From positions 62,001 to 126,000 of the forward strand of contig NW_025939655.1 in the NCBI RefSeq assembly GCF_000764305.2: a stretch of DNA of 64,000 nucleotides, given 5' to 3'. Source of the DNA: Hyalella azteca (Eukaryota; Arthropoda; Malacostraca; Amphipoda; Hyalellidae). This document shows positions 34,618 through 43,800 of this stretch, in pieces (position 1 is the stretch's first letter; every line of letters begins with the position of its first letter). The notes beneath the pieces were generated by a model. The model worked only from the letters and a program-made list of their open reading frames with translations, was not told the origin of the DNA and ran no database searches. The translations under genes and the position numbers were made by a program.

Positions 34618-34885
34618 TTATCGTCGAAAAGTTTTCGACAGGAGGCCTAGGAAGGCCAGAGTCCTGTATAGGATCAGTAACAGACAAAGGCAACACACGT
34701 CCACGCCGATGCTGCCATCCTGGTAATTCAGGAATCGCAGCACCGCCTCGCCGTTCGGGAATCTCGTACGATTCCCAGAAGCAGGAATTGATTCCACCGA
34801 CCGCCACTGATTGATTAAGAGCGCTTCATTCCCGTAGCTGAACCAAGAGGCGTACCGCACCCACGCCAGCCAATCAGGCGTCGAG
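34618..34885 (-). CDS. white exon 10 (C-terminus)
   Basis: Acceptor with a pyrimidine-rich tract, ATCTTTTGTTCCCTCGGCAG. Two bases carried from exon 9 plus C give Gly. It reads STPDWLAWVRYASWFSYGNE, ALLINQWRSVE and the last membrane helix (VCCLCLLLILYRTLAFLGLL), stop TAA at 34618-34620. Four further copies of the acceptor and exon start follow at 62-bp steps. Confidence 0.92.
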
Positions 34886-37800
34886 CTGCCGAGGGAACAA
34901 AAGATAAAAGAGCGCACCGCACCCGCGCCAGCCAATCAGGCGTCGAGCTGTCAAGGGAACAAAAGATAAAAGAGCGCACCGCACCCACGCCAGCCAATCA
35001 GGCGTCGAGCTGTCAAGGAAACAAAAGATAAAAGAGCGCACCTCACCCACGCCTGCCAATCAGGCGTCGAGCTGCCAAGGGAACAAAAGATAAAAGAGCG
35101 CATCTCACCCACGCCTGCCAATCAGGCGTCGAGCTGCCGGTGTAATGAAATACAATAAACACAACAATTAATAATGTAATAGATTACACAGCATCCATAC
35201 CCCGACACTTATCATTACGTTTTGTATTTTATTTTTATTAGAATTATATACATATAATTCGAATATAGAAATATTATATTATAATAAATTATTATATAAA
35301 TCGGCATCAACTAATATATAATATAGAGGATTATTCAAATTATGGACCCAATCTAATAATTTTGTATATATTTAAATGTAATTTCAAAATGAATCATGTA
35401 TGTATTAATGGAAATAGGAATATTTGAAGATTTTTTACATATTTATAAATATTCAATATATCCTCCTGATGCTGCACGGCGAACATCTAAACGGTAGCCA
35501 CTCTCGTCGCACACGAGAAAGCATATCTTCTGTTACTGAGTGCACCGTAGCAGTGATAGAGTTCTTCAGATCAACCAGAGTTGCTGGTAGAGACGGGACG
35601 TAAACAGAGTTGCTGGTAGAGACGGGACGTAAACAGAGTTGCTGGTCTGTCTCTTATACACATCTAGATGTGTATAAGAGACAGGTAAACAGAAAGTCTG
35701 TCAGCACGCAGAAAGTCTGTCAGCACGCAGAAAGTCTGTCATCTTCCATTAATAAATCTGCATTAATGAACATCAATCATTATATATCATAACATATTAC
35801 ATATTCAATCAATATATGTCATTAATATATAACATTACATGTATCATTATAAAATATCATGGCATACATCATTAATATGTATCATTAATAAATATCATCT
35901 TACGTTGATGACGCCGAAGACGTTCTGGAAGGTCATGTTGGTGAGGAGCAGAAAGATGGCGCCGTTGATGTTAGTGACGCTGTCCTGTGATGGTGTTTGT
36001 TGGAAGTAGATGATACCCAGCAGCACGGCTATCAGCTGCACAATGATAGTGATATCAGGGTAGATGATACCCAGCAGCACGGCTATCAGCTGTACAATGA
36101 ATTGCTGGTAGAGGCGGGACGTAAACAGAGTTGCTGGTAGAGGCGGGACGTAAACAGAGTTGCTGGTAGAGGCGGGACGTAAACAGAGTCGCTGGTAGAG
36201 GCGGGACGTAAACAGAGTTGCTGGTAGAGGCGGGACGTAAACAGAGTTGCTGGTAGAGGCGGGACGTAAACAGAGTTGCTGGTAGAGGCGGGACATAAAC
36301 AGCTTCCTTAACGTAACCCCATAAGAAAAAGTCACGTGAGATCAGGTGATCTCGATGGCAAGAAGTGTAGAGGCTGGTTGGTGCAAAACTCTAGCGGCCG
36401 TTTCTGCGACTACCGCCGCCGCCGCCGCCGCCCGATTCCGCGTTTTCATAGTTTAAAAAAAATGGAAAATTTCTCTTTTTATTGGTGTATAAATTATTCA
36501 TTTTGAATTAATACTTAAATAAATATAAATTTATTAAATTGGGTCCATCATGTAGAATAGCCTTGTATATTATATACTTTAATTGCTTCAGCACTCACCC
36601 GTTGTTGAGGAAGAAGCCACCGAAAAGCATGAGGGGAATGACGAGGGGAACCGCCAGGGCCAGCGCCATGTTGAGGTTGCGTGACACGCACGAGATCATG
36701 TAACCTGCGTGACAGGCGCATTTCTCACCACAATGAACAGTATTGTCATCAATAATATTTAATAAACACTGAAAGAAATGTGAGGCTTTGTTCAAATAGC
36801 GATTTACTATTAGCCCTAGTGTGGGTCATCCTGACCCAGTTTAGCCCAGCAAAAGGGCTCAATTGCTACGTCTGCTTTCTTGCTCGCACTGTGGGTAAGA
36901 CAACGTGTCATTATTTGAAGGATATAGCTCATTAAGTTTCCTGAGTGTAGGCTTTGAGAGCGCAGAGCTTTGGAATGGCGAATAATACATTAAAATTATA
37001 GTCGTACTGTCACCGCTGGCCACCCATCGGCCACCAATGAACCTCCAATAAACCACCTATATCTCGAAACCCGGAAAGAAACAGCCCATGCCAGCCAGAT
37101 AATATACTGGTTAAGTTTAGAGAACCAAAATTGGACCAGTGCAGTGAGTTGTGAGTTCGACACCAGCAGCTAACTGTGGAAAGTTTTGGTTTAAATCGCG
37201 AAGGTGGCCGGGCGGTAGTGGATATTGGAGCAGTGAGTTGAGTTTTCAAGACCTGCAGCAAACTGTGAAAATTCTGCAATTATCAGAATCGGCGACAGTT
37301 CTGACGAACTGACTCCTTGCGGTATGATGTATTAATGTTGTCAACACGTATTATCGCTTACCGAACGATGTTGAGATGTTGGCAACCAGCACGACGATGG
37401 CGGCACATGTGAAGAAGTTGACGATGTTGCCCCCGAAGCCGACCATGTAGTAGGCGATGATGGAGAACATGAAGGGCAAGGCGATGTAGAAGGGAAGTTC
37501 GGCCAGAGTCTTGGCCAGGAAATAAACATCCGTGCGATACATTCCGTTGAGATGTTCACGCAGGAACACCGGTACTTGCACGCAGAAAGTCTGTCAGCAC
37601 GCAGAAAGTCTGTCAGCACGCAGAAAGTCCGTCAGCACGCAGAAAGTCTGTCAGCACGCAGAAAGTCTGTCAGCACGCAGAAAGTCTGTCAGCACGCAGA
37701 AAGTCTGTCAGCTTCCATTAATAAATCTGCATTAATGAACATCAATCATTATATATCATAACATATTACATATTCAATCAATATATGTCATTAATATATA

Positions 37801-40800: not shown

Positions 40801-43800
40801 AGGAATAAGAAAGTAACGAAGGTTTTGGCAAATGCTGGCCTCTAACATGTATCCTCTCCTTGTCACGTACCCAGGAATTGACAAGGAAGTCAAGATCGTC
40901 AAGACGGAGGACGCTCTGGGTTTGACCATCACTGATAATGGCGCTGTCGCGCCTTTATCACCGCAGGCCCTCACCTCGTCAGCGGCCATGTTGTCCTCGA
41001 TGGCCTCACCTCGTCAGCGACCATGTTGTCCTCAATGGCCTGGGCCACCATCTGTCCATCATGGGAAGAAGCGAACTCGTCGCACAGCGTGGCAATGGCC
41101 GCACGACAGGCTTCGTCCTTCCCGGGTTGGATGGCCAGAGTTGAGATGAAGAAGTCAGCGGGGTTGTAGTTGGGGGGACAGGGCAACCCCACCCTGGGGG
41201 GTGATAGTAAGGCATCATTACTGCAATGATGATGATGAAAGGGATACTATACCAATGTATACCATTTTACTAATACTGATAAAACAATAATGATGCAGTA
41301 GTAATGCATCACATTGTACTGATACTAATGATATAATTCCTATGTACATCATTATACTAAAACTGATGATAAAATTCAGATACAATGTAATATATAATAA
41401 AATAATTATACTAATGAAGTAGTTGTAATACATGATAAGCTGATTGGCCACTCACATCTGATGGTCACACTCACACCACTCCTCATGGCCACACTCACAC
41501 CACTTCTGATGGCCACACTCACACCACTTCTGATGGTCACACTCACACCTGTCCTCATGNCACTCACACCATTTCTGATGGCCACTCACACCACTGATGG
41601 CCACTCACACCATTTCTGATGGCCACTCACACCACTGATGGCCACTCACACCATTTCTGATGGCCACTCACACCACTGATGGCCACTCACACCATTTCTG
41701 ATGGCCACTCACACCACTGATGGCCACTCACACCATTTCTGATGGCCACTCACACCACTGATGGCCACTCACACCATTTCTGATGGCCACTCACACCACT
41801 GAGGGTCACTCACACCTGATAACCACTCACAACTGCTAAACTGATGTCCACTCACTAGTGATAAGCTGATGGCCACTCATCTGATGGCCACTCATCTGAT
41901 GGCCACTCATCTGATGGCCACTCATCTGATGGCCACTCATCTGATGGCCACTCACATCTGACGGCCACTCACATCTGATGGCCACTCATCTGATGGCTAC
42001 TCACACCACTCATGATGGCCACTCACACCACTCATGATGGCCACTCATTCCACCACTGATGGTCACTCATCTGATGGCCACTCACCGGCTGAAGAAGAGA
42101 TAAGCAGCATCAGCATCCCCCAGGAACGCGACGCGTCCTTCAGCCATGAGCAGGACGCGGTCAAACATGGCGTACACCTCAGAGCTGGGCTGATGAATGG
42201 TAGCAATGATGGTCTTGCCACGCTCTGCCATCATCTTCATCACACCCACCACAGCCTGGGCCATGAATGAGTCCAACCCACTGGTGGGTTCATCACAAAA
42301 CATCAATGGTGGGTTCGTGAGTACCTCACAAGCGAATGCTAACCTCTTCATTTCCCCTCCTGAGATTCCTTTAATCCTGCCAGGAACTCCTATTTTTGTG
42401 AAGGCACATTTTGTGAGTCCGAGCTCCATGATAACCTCTTCTACCCTCATTACCCTCTGTTCGAGGGTAATGTCGCGGTCCATGCGCAACATGGCTTGGA
42501 ATATAAGCTGTTCTCGTACAGTTAGTAGGCCTATGAAGAGGTCGTCTTGTTGCACGTAGGCCGATAGGCTCGTCAGGCTGTCGGGGTGTACAGGGCGACC
42601 GTTGACGTGCAGGTCGCCTGTCACGCGCACCTAAAGGGGCAATACGCATCAATGTATTAATTCATTTTAAAGAGTATTAATAGAATATTAACCTAACATT
42701 AATAATCTTTTTTATTGGGCATCAATATACACTATTGATGCTCACCATACACCATTGACATGCTGGTCGCGCGCACCTAAATGCGAAAAAGGCATAAATT
42801 TTATTAATAGGTTTTGATGCATATCAATAGAGTATTAATATATTAGTATAAATAAAATATTGGGCATAGAGTTTATTTATGCGTATTAATGTAGTAGCAG
42901 TACACTATAAAGTATTAAGAGCATACATACACAGCAATAAGATATTTCAACATACTCACCATTATTATGCAAGCTGAACGAAGCAAATGTCTAATTTATA
43001 ACAATTGTAATGTAACTAATTAATCTGATGTAACAAATTACCTAATACAATGTAAATAATTAACTAATCTAATGCAACTATATATAATCAACTTATCAGA
43101 TGTAACTATTTAACTAATCTAATATAACTAATTAACTCATCTAATGTAACAAATTAACGAATCTAATGAAACGAACTAATCTAATGTAACGAATTACCTA
43201 ATCTAATGTAATATTTAAATATTTGCGAGCATTATTGACGAAAATACTATTGCTTTATTAGAGCAAAATGGCTTTTTACCTTGTCGTTATTACGGTGCGT
43301 TAGGACGCCATTACCTTGTCGTTATTACGGTGCGTTAGGACGCCATTACCTTGTCGTTATTACGGTGCGTTAGGACGTCATTACCTTGTCGTTATTACGG
43401 TGCGTTAGGACGTCATTACCTTGTCGTTATTACGGTGCGTTAGGACGTCATTACCCTGTCGTTATTACGGTGCGTTAGGACGCCATTACCTTGTCGTTAT
43501 TACGGTGCGTTAGGACGTCATTACCTTGTCGTTATTACGGTGCGTTAGGACGTCATTACCTTGTCGTTATTACGGTGCGTTAGGACGTTCAATAACGTTG
43601 TTTTTCCAGCACCTGACGCACCCATCACGGCCAGCAGTTCGCCAGGGCGACACACGCCGTTTACTGCAATAAAAAATATTATAAACATTAATTTTATCGA
43701 TAAACAGAAAATTAAGTTTAGCAACTGCCTTTTAAAAAATTTTGGACATTATTCATGTATTTGGTTGAATATGCATTATATTATTCCAATGATACAAAAA

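Follow-up and report, generated by a model that had tools for sequence, protein, structure and literature searches.

Tandem arrays straddling exon edges in the white gene of Hyalella azteca and in other genes of this amphipod

The white gene and the arrays at its exon edges

The region examined here (the window) is a 64,000-nucleotide (nt) stretch of the Hyalella azteca genome (GCF_000764305.2, NW_025939655.1, positions 62,001 to 126,000), which is part of contig C2576 of the 519-Mb assembly. On its minus strand lies white, a gene for an ABCG transporter, in which tandem arrays were found to straddle five of the 18 intron-facing exon edges and to abut one more (exon 4). The gene was identified by both its domains and its orthology. 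Pieces of ABC_tran and ABC2_membrane were detected by Pfam, and exons 3 to 10, when spliced at the outermost copies of the arrays, formed a single open frame of 573 residues that matched 'protein white [Hyalella azteca]' at 100% identity over 100% of its length; the next-best matches were mostly crustacean white proteins at ≤73%. Exon edges were set from this open frame. Exons 3 (43560..43663), 5 (41010..41193), 7 (37873..38004), and 8 (37362..37590) and the coding part of exon 10 (34622..34885, starting at 34885) were placed by joining of open reading frames (ORFs) and by protein identity, as was exon 4 (42086..42630), for which Pfam gave additional evidence. Exons 6 (39828..39983) and 9 (36599..36704), with no array at either edge, were placed by ORF joining. 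The coding part of exon 1 (45571..45588) and exon 2 (44969..45161) were assigned from the N-terminus of the annotated protein, with the end of exon 2 taken from a GTACGT donor; no array was detected near this end (44969) by Tandem Repeats Finder (TRF). When the proteins of four crustacean orthologues were compared by eye, they were found to agree across the 3/4, 6/7, 7/8, and 9/10 joints, and the exon 5/6 joint was found to fall in a non-conserved stretch.

Arrays were called with TRF and compared with the re-derived exon edges. All of those at exon edges are given here in the orientation of the gene (minus strand). Two of the five straddling arrays are on the donor side: (i) a 35-bp unit in 8.9 copies at exon 3 (43276..43588), which carries GTAATG and 29 nt of exon; and (ii) a 35-bp unit in 2.1 copies at exon 5 (40969..41041), which carries GTGAG and 32 nt of exon. 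The remaining three are on the acceptor side: (i) a 54-bp unit in 3.5 copies at exon 7 (37975..38188), made of 30 nt of exon and 24 nt of intron end; (ii) a 19-bp unit in 7.1 copies at exon 8 (37578..37712), with 13 nt of exon and TGACAG; and (iii) a 62-bp unit in 4.7 copies at exon 10 (34845..35138), with up to 41 nt of exon, the polypyrimidine tract, and AG. Each unit of these five arrays therefore holds 13 to 41 nt of coding sequence together with intron sequence and a splice site, as a border-crossing duplication would. The exception was the block at the exon 4 donor (41440..42084), whose units of 15, 22, and 41 bp repeat the start of the intron, contain no exon sequence, and stop 2 bp before the exon; the first 646 nt of this intron include GTGAGT 25 times and ATGAGT 10 times. 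A lone N at 41560, within the block, is perhaps a mark of assembler uncertainty. The sequence-only reading from which this work started had described six introns with an edge array holding the splice site, and this description stood for exons 3, 5, 7, 8, and 10 but not for exon 4.

The white arrays are composed of head-to-tail units of 10-100 bp, as minisatellites are, and the introns that bear them measure 282-1,823 nt as calculated from the coordinates. All rows were found to run into the intron, as had been proposed earlier, and on the exon side none reached deeper than one unit. When the unit junctions were inspected by eye, exons 5 and 8 showed microhomology of 2-5 nt and exon 3 a filler of 2 nt, a pattern that slippage or end joining would be expected to leave. 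With founder units placed at random, 1.0 straddled edges would be expected in white compared with the five observed (P = 0.003-0.004), a value of limited weight because the gene was chosen for its odd look.

The annotated white protein was reached only via the outermost copies, which confirmed the earlier proposal that the copy at the gene is the true junction. Modelling of 21 exact inner sites (8, 1, 3, 5, and 4 for exons 3, 5, 7, 8, and 10, respectively) resulted in an early stop in all 21 cases; in the case of exon 10, which is the last, the 'early stop' takes the form of a frame-shifted, shortened end. The units of 35, 35, 19, and 62 bp shift the frame, and the 54-bp unit is in frame but adds a stop. 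As the annotated protein needs one intron per place, with splicing at the outermost copies, the white arrays do not appear to have created a new intron. The outermost copy is itself array-made, and therefore some of the sequence that now forms the acceptor context of exon 8 was once coding.

Exon edges of other genes and donor motifs across the genome

To define a sample of edges, exon matches of the Pfam families myosin, TCP1, kinesin, and ABC2 were used, with genes taken regardless of repeats. The sample covered some of the 90 matches to myosin, 54 of the 61 to TCP1, 9 of the 141 to kinesin, and 10 of the 11 to ABC2 (white excluded), and none of the 98 to SNF. Edges were the ends of the hidden Markov model (HMM) matches, which are accurate to a few codons; edges <150 bp from the end of the fetched DNA were excluded, as were HMM ends that coincide with domain termini. 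Two kinesin genes had been picked for their density of exons, at a point when their repeats had not yet been seen, and one of these yields 3 of the 18 hits reported below from 8 edges. In the null model, each array was represented by one founder unit at a random position in the collapsed non-coding DNA.

TRF arrays were found to straddle 18 of the 231 internal exon edges, distributed over 9 of 27 contigs, where 6.5 would be expected when the smallest period was used (P = 1.5e-4) and 8.1 when the best-scoring period was used (P = 1.8e-3). Exon-containing arrays thus recur in genes unrelated to white, at 2.0-2.8 times the random-placement expectation. Allowing a 9 bp tolerance raised the count to 19 edges, compared with 8.0 and 9.5 expected (P = 6e-4 and 4e-3). 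Three of the 18 strict hits came from matches with internal stops, whose ends are less certain; among the stop-free matches (from an earlier set of 225 edges), 15 of 171 edges were hit compared with 4.9-7.3 expected (P = 2e-4 to 8e-3). When the analysis was confined to the 64 introns whose neighbours on both sides were known, an edge was straddled by 8 of 16 arrays compared with 2.5-3.8 expected (P = 0.0008-0.014). The larger sample supersedes an earlier look at 114 edges, of which 10 lay in an array and 12 no further than 15 bp from one. Repeated exon text was visible in the alignments for myosin at C4518:160251 (47 bp x 6), C4561:35730 (58 bp x 7.9), and C4561:29691, for kinesin at C3452:272498 (93 bp x 3) and C3452:272274, and for an ABC gene at C1323:26441 (52 bp x 4). 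Some of the 18 were weak, among them a 15-bp array at C3598:1225760 and a 195-bp x 2 repeat at C3419.

The arrays were also examined for their splice dinucleotides and unit lengths. Over 17 arrays, GT or AG was kept in 54 of 57 inner copies, compared with 46-47 of 57 expected had the bases decayed like flanks of 90% identity, a comparison biased upward since similarity around the site was the basis on which the copies were identified. Because of this retention the inner copies look competent, and competing splice sites are certainly present in the arrays; in RNA, the inner copies are probably largely unused. Unit length was a multiple of three in 8 of 19 sample edge arrays compared with 6.3 by chance, with no clear bias, and neither in white nor in the sample did unit lengths regularly preserve the reading frame, which was looked for as a sign of alternative splice-site arrays.

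Tandem donor motifs were counted genome-wide. The motif AGGTGAGT was present in 4 of 112 donor windows compared with 0.1 expected, and its single occurrences (15,064) were close in number to those of its reversed control (15,128), which has the same base make-up but a different structure. Pairs of AGGTGAGT at 16-46 bp, in contrast, numbered 1,940 compared with 756 for the control, a 2.6-fold excess. This count is motif-level, with its places not matched to true exon edges, and because each array inflates it about four-fold (100 listed pairs fell into 23 clusters of varied period), no significance was drawn from it. Pairs of CAGGTGAG were also in excess (1,977 compared with 533 in the control), but its singles were uncounted and many of its places are shared with AGGTGAGT pairs, so this serves as a repeat look only. 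A third motif, AGGTAAGT, was absent from the donor windows (0/115 and 0/112). It was dropped as a genome-wide donor proxy and, saying nothing on donors for this reason, was kept as a negative control, in which pairs made up 2.21% compared with 1.99% for its reverse (1.1-fold). Pairs of GGTAAGT at one fixed spacing (10 compared with 33 in the control) had the same fault as the AGGTAAGT proxy. In the donor windows of the fetched genes, GTGAGT was favoured over GTAAGT (11 compared with 3 of 112).

Other repeats and frames were observed in the window and in the sampled families. Within the window, a 15-bp unit repeated 78 times (53047-54222) holds several frames open for 213-394 codons and is a false-gene trap, and frames at 6855-7679 and 27608-27952 resemble, by eye, a gag of the copia type and part of a reverse transcriptase. 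Among the families, one myosin exon (profile 376-436) is present in five tandem copies at C3480:70706-73952; these presumably resemble the mutually exclusive exons of insect muscle myosin. A repeated exon was found in a TCP1 gene (C310:27699-27884 and 30576-30761, the profile span occurring twice), as were repeated exons in a kinesin gene (C226:44916-46735, profile spans occurring twice), each being a larger tandem duplication or an assembly copy.

Origin of the arrays

We consider it likely that the arrays are real border-straddling minisatellites, which arose by duplications spanning exon edges, were lengthened by slippage, and are tolerated on the intron side. In this genome, rich in minisatellites, short tandem duplications would be frequent, and a duplicated segment that by chance spans an exon edge would bring a piece of the exon and the splice site along. 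Further slippage, the presumed engine, would then extend the row. The copy joined to the unique exon would stay intact, with the added copies leaving with the intron. A duplication over the edge would be harmless while the outermost site is used, because all added sequence becomes intron, and growth of the arrays would therefore be confined to the intron side. The outermost site may prevail in this animal through exon definition, in which preference goes to the splice sites that lie nearest to each other across the exon. In a minigene study, identical strong donors with long flanking introns were spliced exclusively at the upstream, exon-closest donor (PMC9225289).

Several observations weigh against this account or limit it. 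The same study reports, for acceptors under exon definition, only a reduced upstream preference that was not clearly exon-closest; since this shift is weaker, the exon-definition rule fits the donor arrays better than the acceptor arrays (PMC9225289). Without its array, intron 7 of white would measure ~160 nt, below the ~250 nt threshold for exon definition given in that study (PMC9225289). In 4 of the 19 hits the array intruded into the HMM match by more than the length of its smallest unit. The excess over random placement is beyond what duplication plus tolerance alone explains. Furthermore, the proportion of edges that lie inside an array or no more than 9 bp from one (19/225, 8.4%) is not above the share of non-coding bases that arrays occupy (11.6%).

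The excess left over by duplication and tolerance could come from mutation targeted to the edges. A feature of the border (a base-composition step, R-loops, or co-transcriptional splicing) would seed the duplications, which drift and slippage would then expand; we regard this as possible, though doubtful. It would agree with the 2-3-fold excess at edges, with the excess of tandem AGGTGAGT and CAGGTGAG motifs, and with the microhomology and filler at the white junctions, which are as found in error-prone repair or replication slippage. However, this modest excess derives from 18 edges in 9 contigs and from two motifs that overlap. Expansion may also be inherent to GT-rich minisatellites, which a reversed control of different structure would not mirror, and tandem duplications commonly show microhomology wherever they occur. 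Border-linked mutation, one of the explanations offered in the sequence-only reading, is thus partly supported by the edge and donor-pair excesses, which are modest, and no edge-specific mechanism was demonstrated. As a speculation of similarly low standing, exon-intron borders in this amphipod might be hot spots of minisatellite birth, with about 1 in 13 edges (18/231) heading a row of near-identical competing sites that the spliceosome would encounter throughout the genome and resolve by position alone.

Somewhat less probable, and in our judgment unlikely, is plain chance, by which dense intronic minisatellites, making up ~12% of the sampled bases outside HMM matches, would overlie some edges with no preference for them and white would be an extreme draw. 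The selection of white for its odd look and the comparison with base coverage are both compatible with chance. Plain base coverage was nevertheless set aside as a null: a long array is counted in bases once per copy and an edge only once, which makes coverage the looser null. With a single random placement per array, chance would have to account for the excess of straddled edges, for the half of the arrays in complete introns that straddle an edge, and for the genome-wide excess of donor pairs. The earlier claim that repeats begin at exon edges more often than expected by chance thus held against the founder-unit null but not against plain coverage.

It is very improbable that the arrays are an assembly artefact, in which gap filling with untrimmed mate-pair reads made false repeats at edges. 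Adapters do remain: the assembly contains 6,573 forward and 6,528 reverse mosaic ends (13,101; none for the reversed control), equivalent to ~6,500 untrimmed mate-pair junctions, and one of these lies in intron 9 of white. This junction (35647..35684), identified by sequence match as two mosaic ends head to head, is a sequencing artefact whose adapter we take to be Nextera. It cuts off a 29-bp unit in 2.4 copies (35576..35646) and lies next to a duplicate of exon 7 and adjoining array pieces (35690..36101, minus strand), which is identical to 37659-38070 at 408 of 412 positions, covers the whole of exon 7, starts within one array, and finishes within another. A 29-bp unit in 6.9 copies (36102..36302) is also present in this intron, away from the exon edges. 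The segment 35690-36101 is probably a gap-filling chimera of the assembly, and the false exon copy could mislead gene prediction. The flanks of the junction at 35647 map out of the order expected for a simple circle junction; at another junction (locus L034), the flanks recur ~800 bp off to both sides, the arrangement that a circle junction would produce. The number of copies in near-identical arrays, for example that of exon 3, is uncertain and may still be wrong.

Against an artefactual origin for the arrays at large, the density of tandem repeats was similar within 150 bp of adapters (17.3%) and further off (16.4%) at 15 junctions, which argues that they are not adapter products; at these junctions the arrays were not tied to adapters, with the exon 7 copy excepted. 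Copies also differ from each other within many arrays, with divergence of up to ~25%, and in four of five TCP1 edge arrays matches between copies fell to 75-82%, which suggests that these arrays are old and not assembler loops. We also know of no feature of DNA assembly that would mark exon edges. Systematic assembly error, which had been raised as an explanation, is thus supported for the exon 7 copy beside the adapter only, in view of the diverged copies and the lack of an adapter link elsewhere. Least credible of all is that selection maintains redundant or regulated splice sites as a working system since, although the competing sites that the sequence-only reading suggested exist and largely retain GT or AG (a retention inflated by how the copies were found), useful redundancy is not supported, given the absence of a clear multiple-of-three bias in the units and the early stop from every exact inner site modelled in white.

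Overall, the arrays are real, extend beyond white, and are in part explained by a minisatellite-rich genome and selection; the 2-3-fold excess at edges is supported by the results but not secured.

Significance and relation to known systems

The chief value of the arrays is that ordinary RNA reads can test the choice among identical splice sites. One genome supplies natural rows (~2 to 9 copies) at donors and acceptors, both diverged and near-identical, in ordinary conserved genes, and RNA reads over these arrays would test the exon-definition rule, the amount of mis-splicing tolerated, and intron growth by duplication. The edge excess, if upheld, suggests that mutation is biased at exon borders. 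In practical terms, the assembly still contains thousands of sequencing adapters. Duplicated splice sites were reportedly the subject of work by Reed and Maniatis in 1986. For rows at about 1 in 13 edges of ordinary genes, no description was found in the literature searched, which covered few subscription papers. The earlier remark that such a system was not known from the literature needs qualification, since single border-crossing tandem duplications are reported in two papers (PMC4974935, PMC2812944).

The choice among identical splice sites has so far been tested with engineered pairs, for example in the minigenes of PMC9225289. These minigenes share with the Hyalella arrays identical donors in a row, of which the exon-closest was chosen when introns were long; they differ in being engineered pairs in transfected cells, and the Hyalella rows are natural and number up to about nine (PMC9225289). 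A splice motif in every tandem unit is also known from the dual-specific AGGT sites of the polyubiquitin gene UBC. There, the repeated sites are used within coding repeats and the introns are multiples of the unit, whereas the added units of Hyalella are intronic (PMC10809524).

Minisatellites at exon-intron boundaries that are able to alter gene structure have been described in human segmental duplications, where internal tandem repeats with units of 30 bp on average and 4 copies can sit at such boundaries. These human repeats are recent and lie in duplicated genes, half of them alter the coding sequence, and those at boundaries may make new introns; the Hyalella arrays, in contrast, occur in genes that are conserved, whose coding sequence they do not alter (PMC2812944). 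Among arthropods, novel intron positions of Drosophila, ascribed to tandem duplication or sliding, likewise involve tandem duplication of coding sequence with a splice motif. Unlike in Hyalella, the outcome there was new introns, with 5 of 31 near-intron pairs, and rows of copies go unmentioned in the available portion of that paper (PMC2891723). Finally, in the RdRp gene of potato, one border-crossing tandem genomic duplication is described as having created a new intron. Similar to the arrays examined here, the duplicated segment extends over the border and brings with it the signals of the acceptor and a piece of exon that turns intronic; the Hyalella arrays differ in that an existing intron was lengthened by rows of ~2 to 9 copies, at donors and at acceptors alike, and in many genes (PMC4974935).

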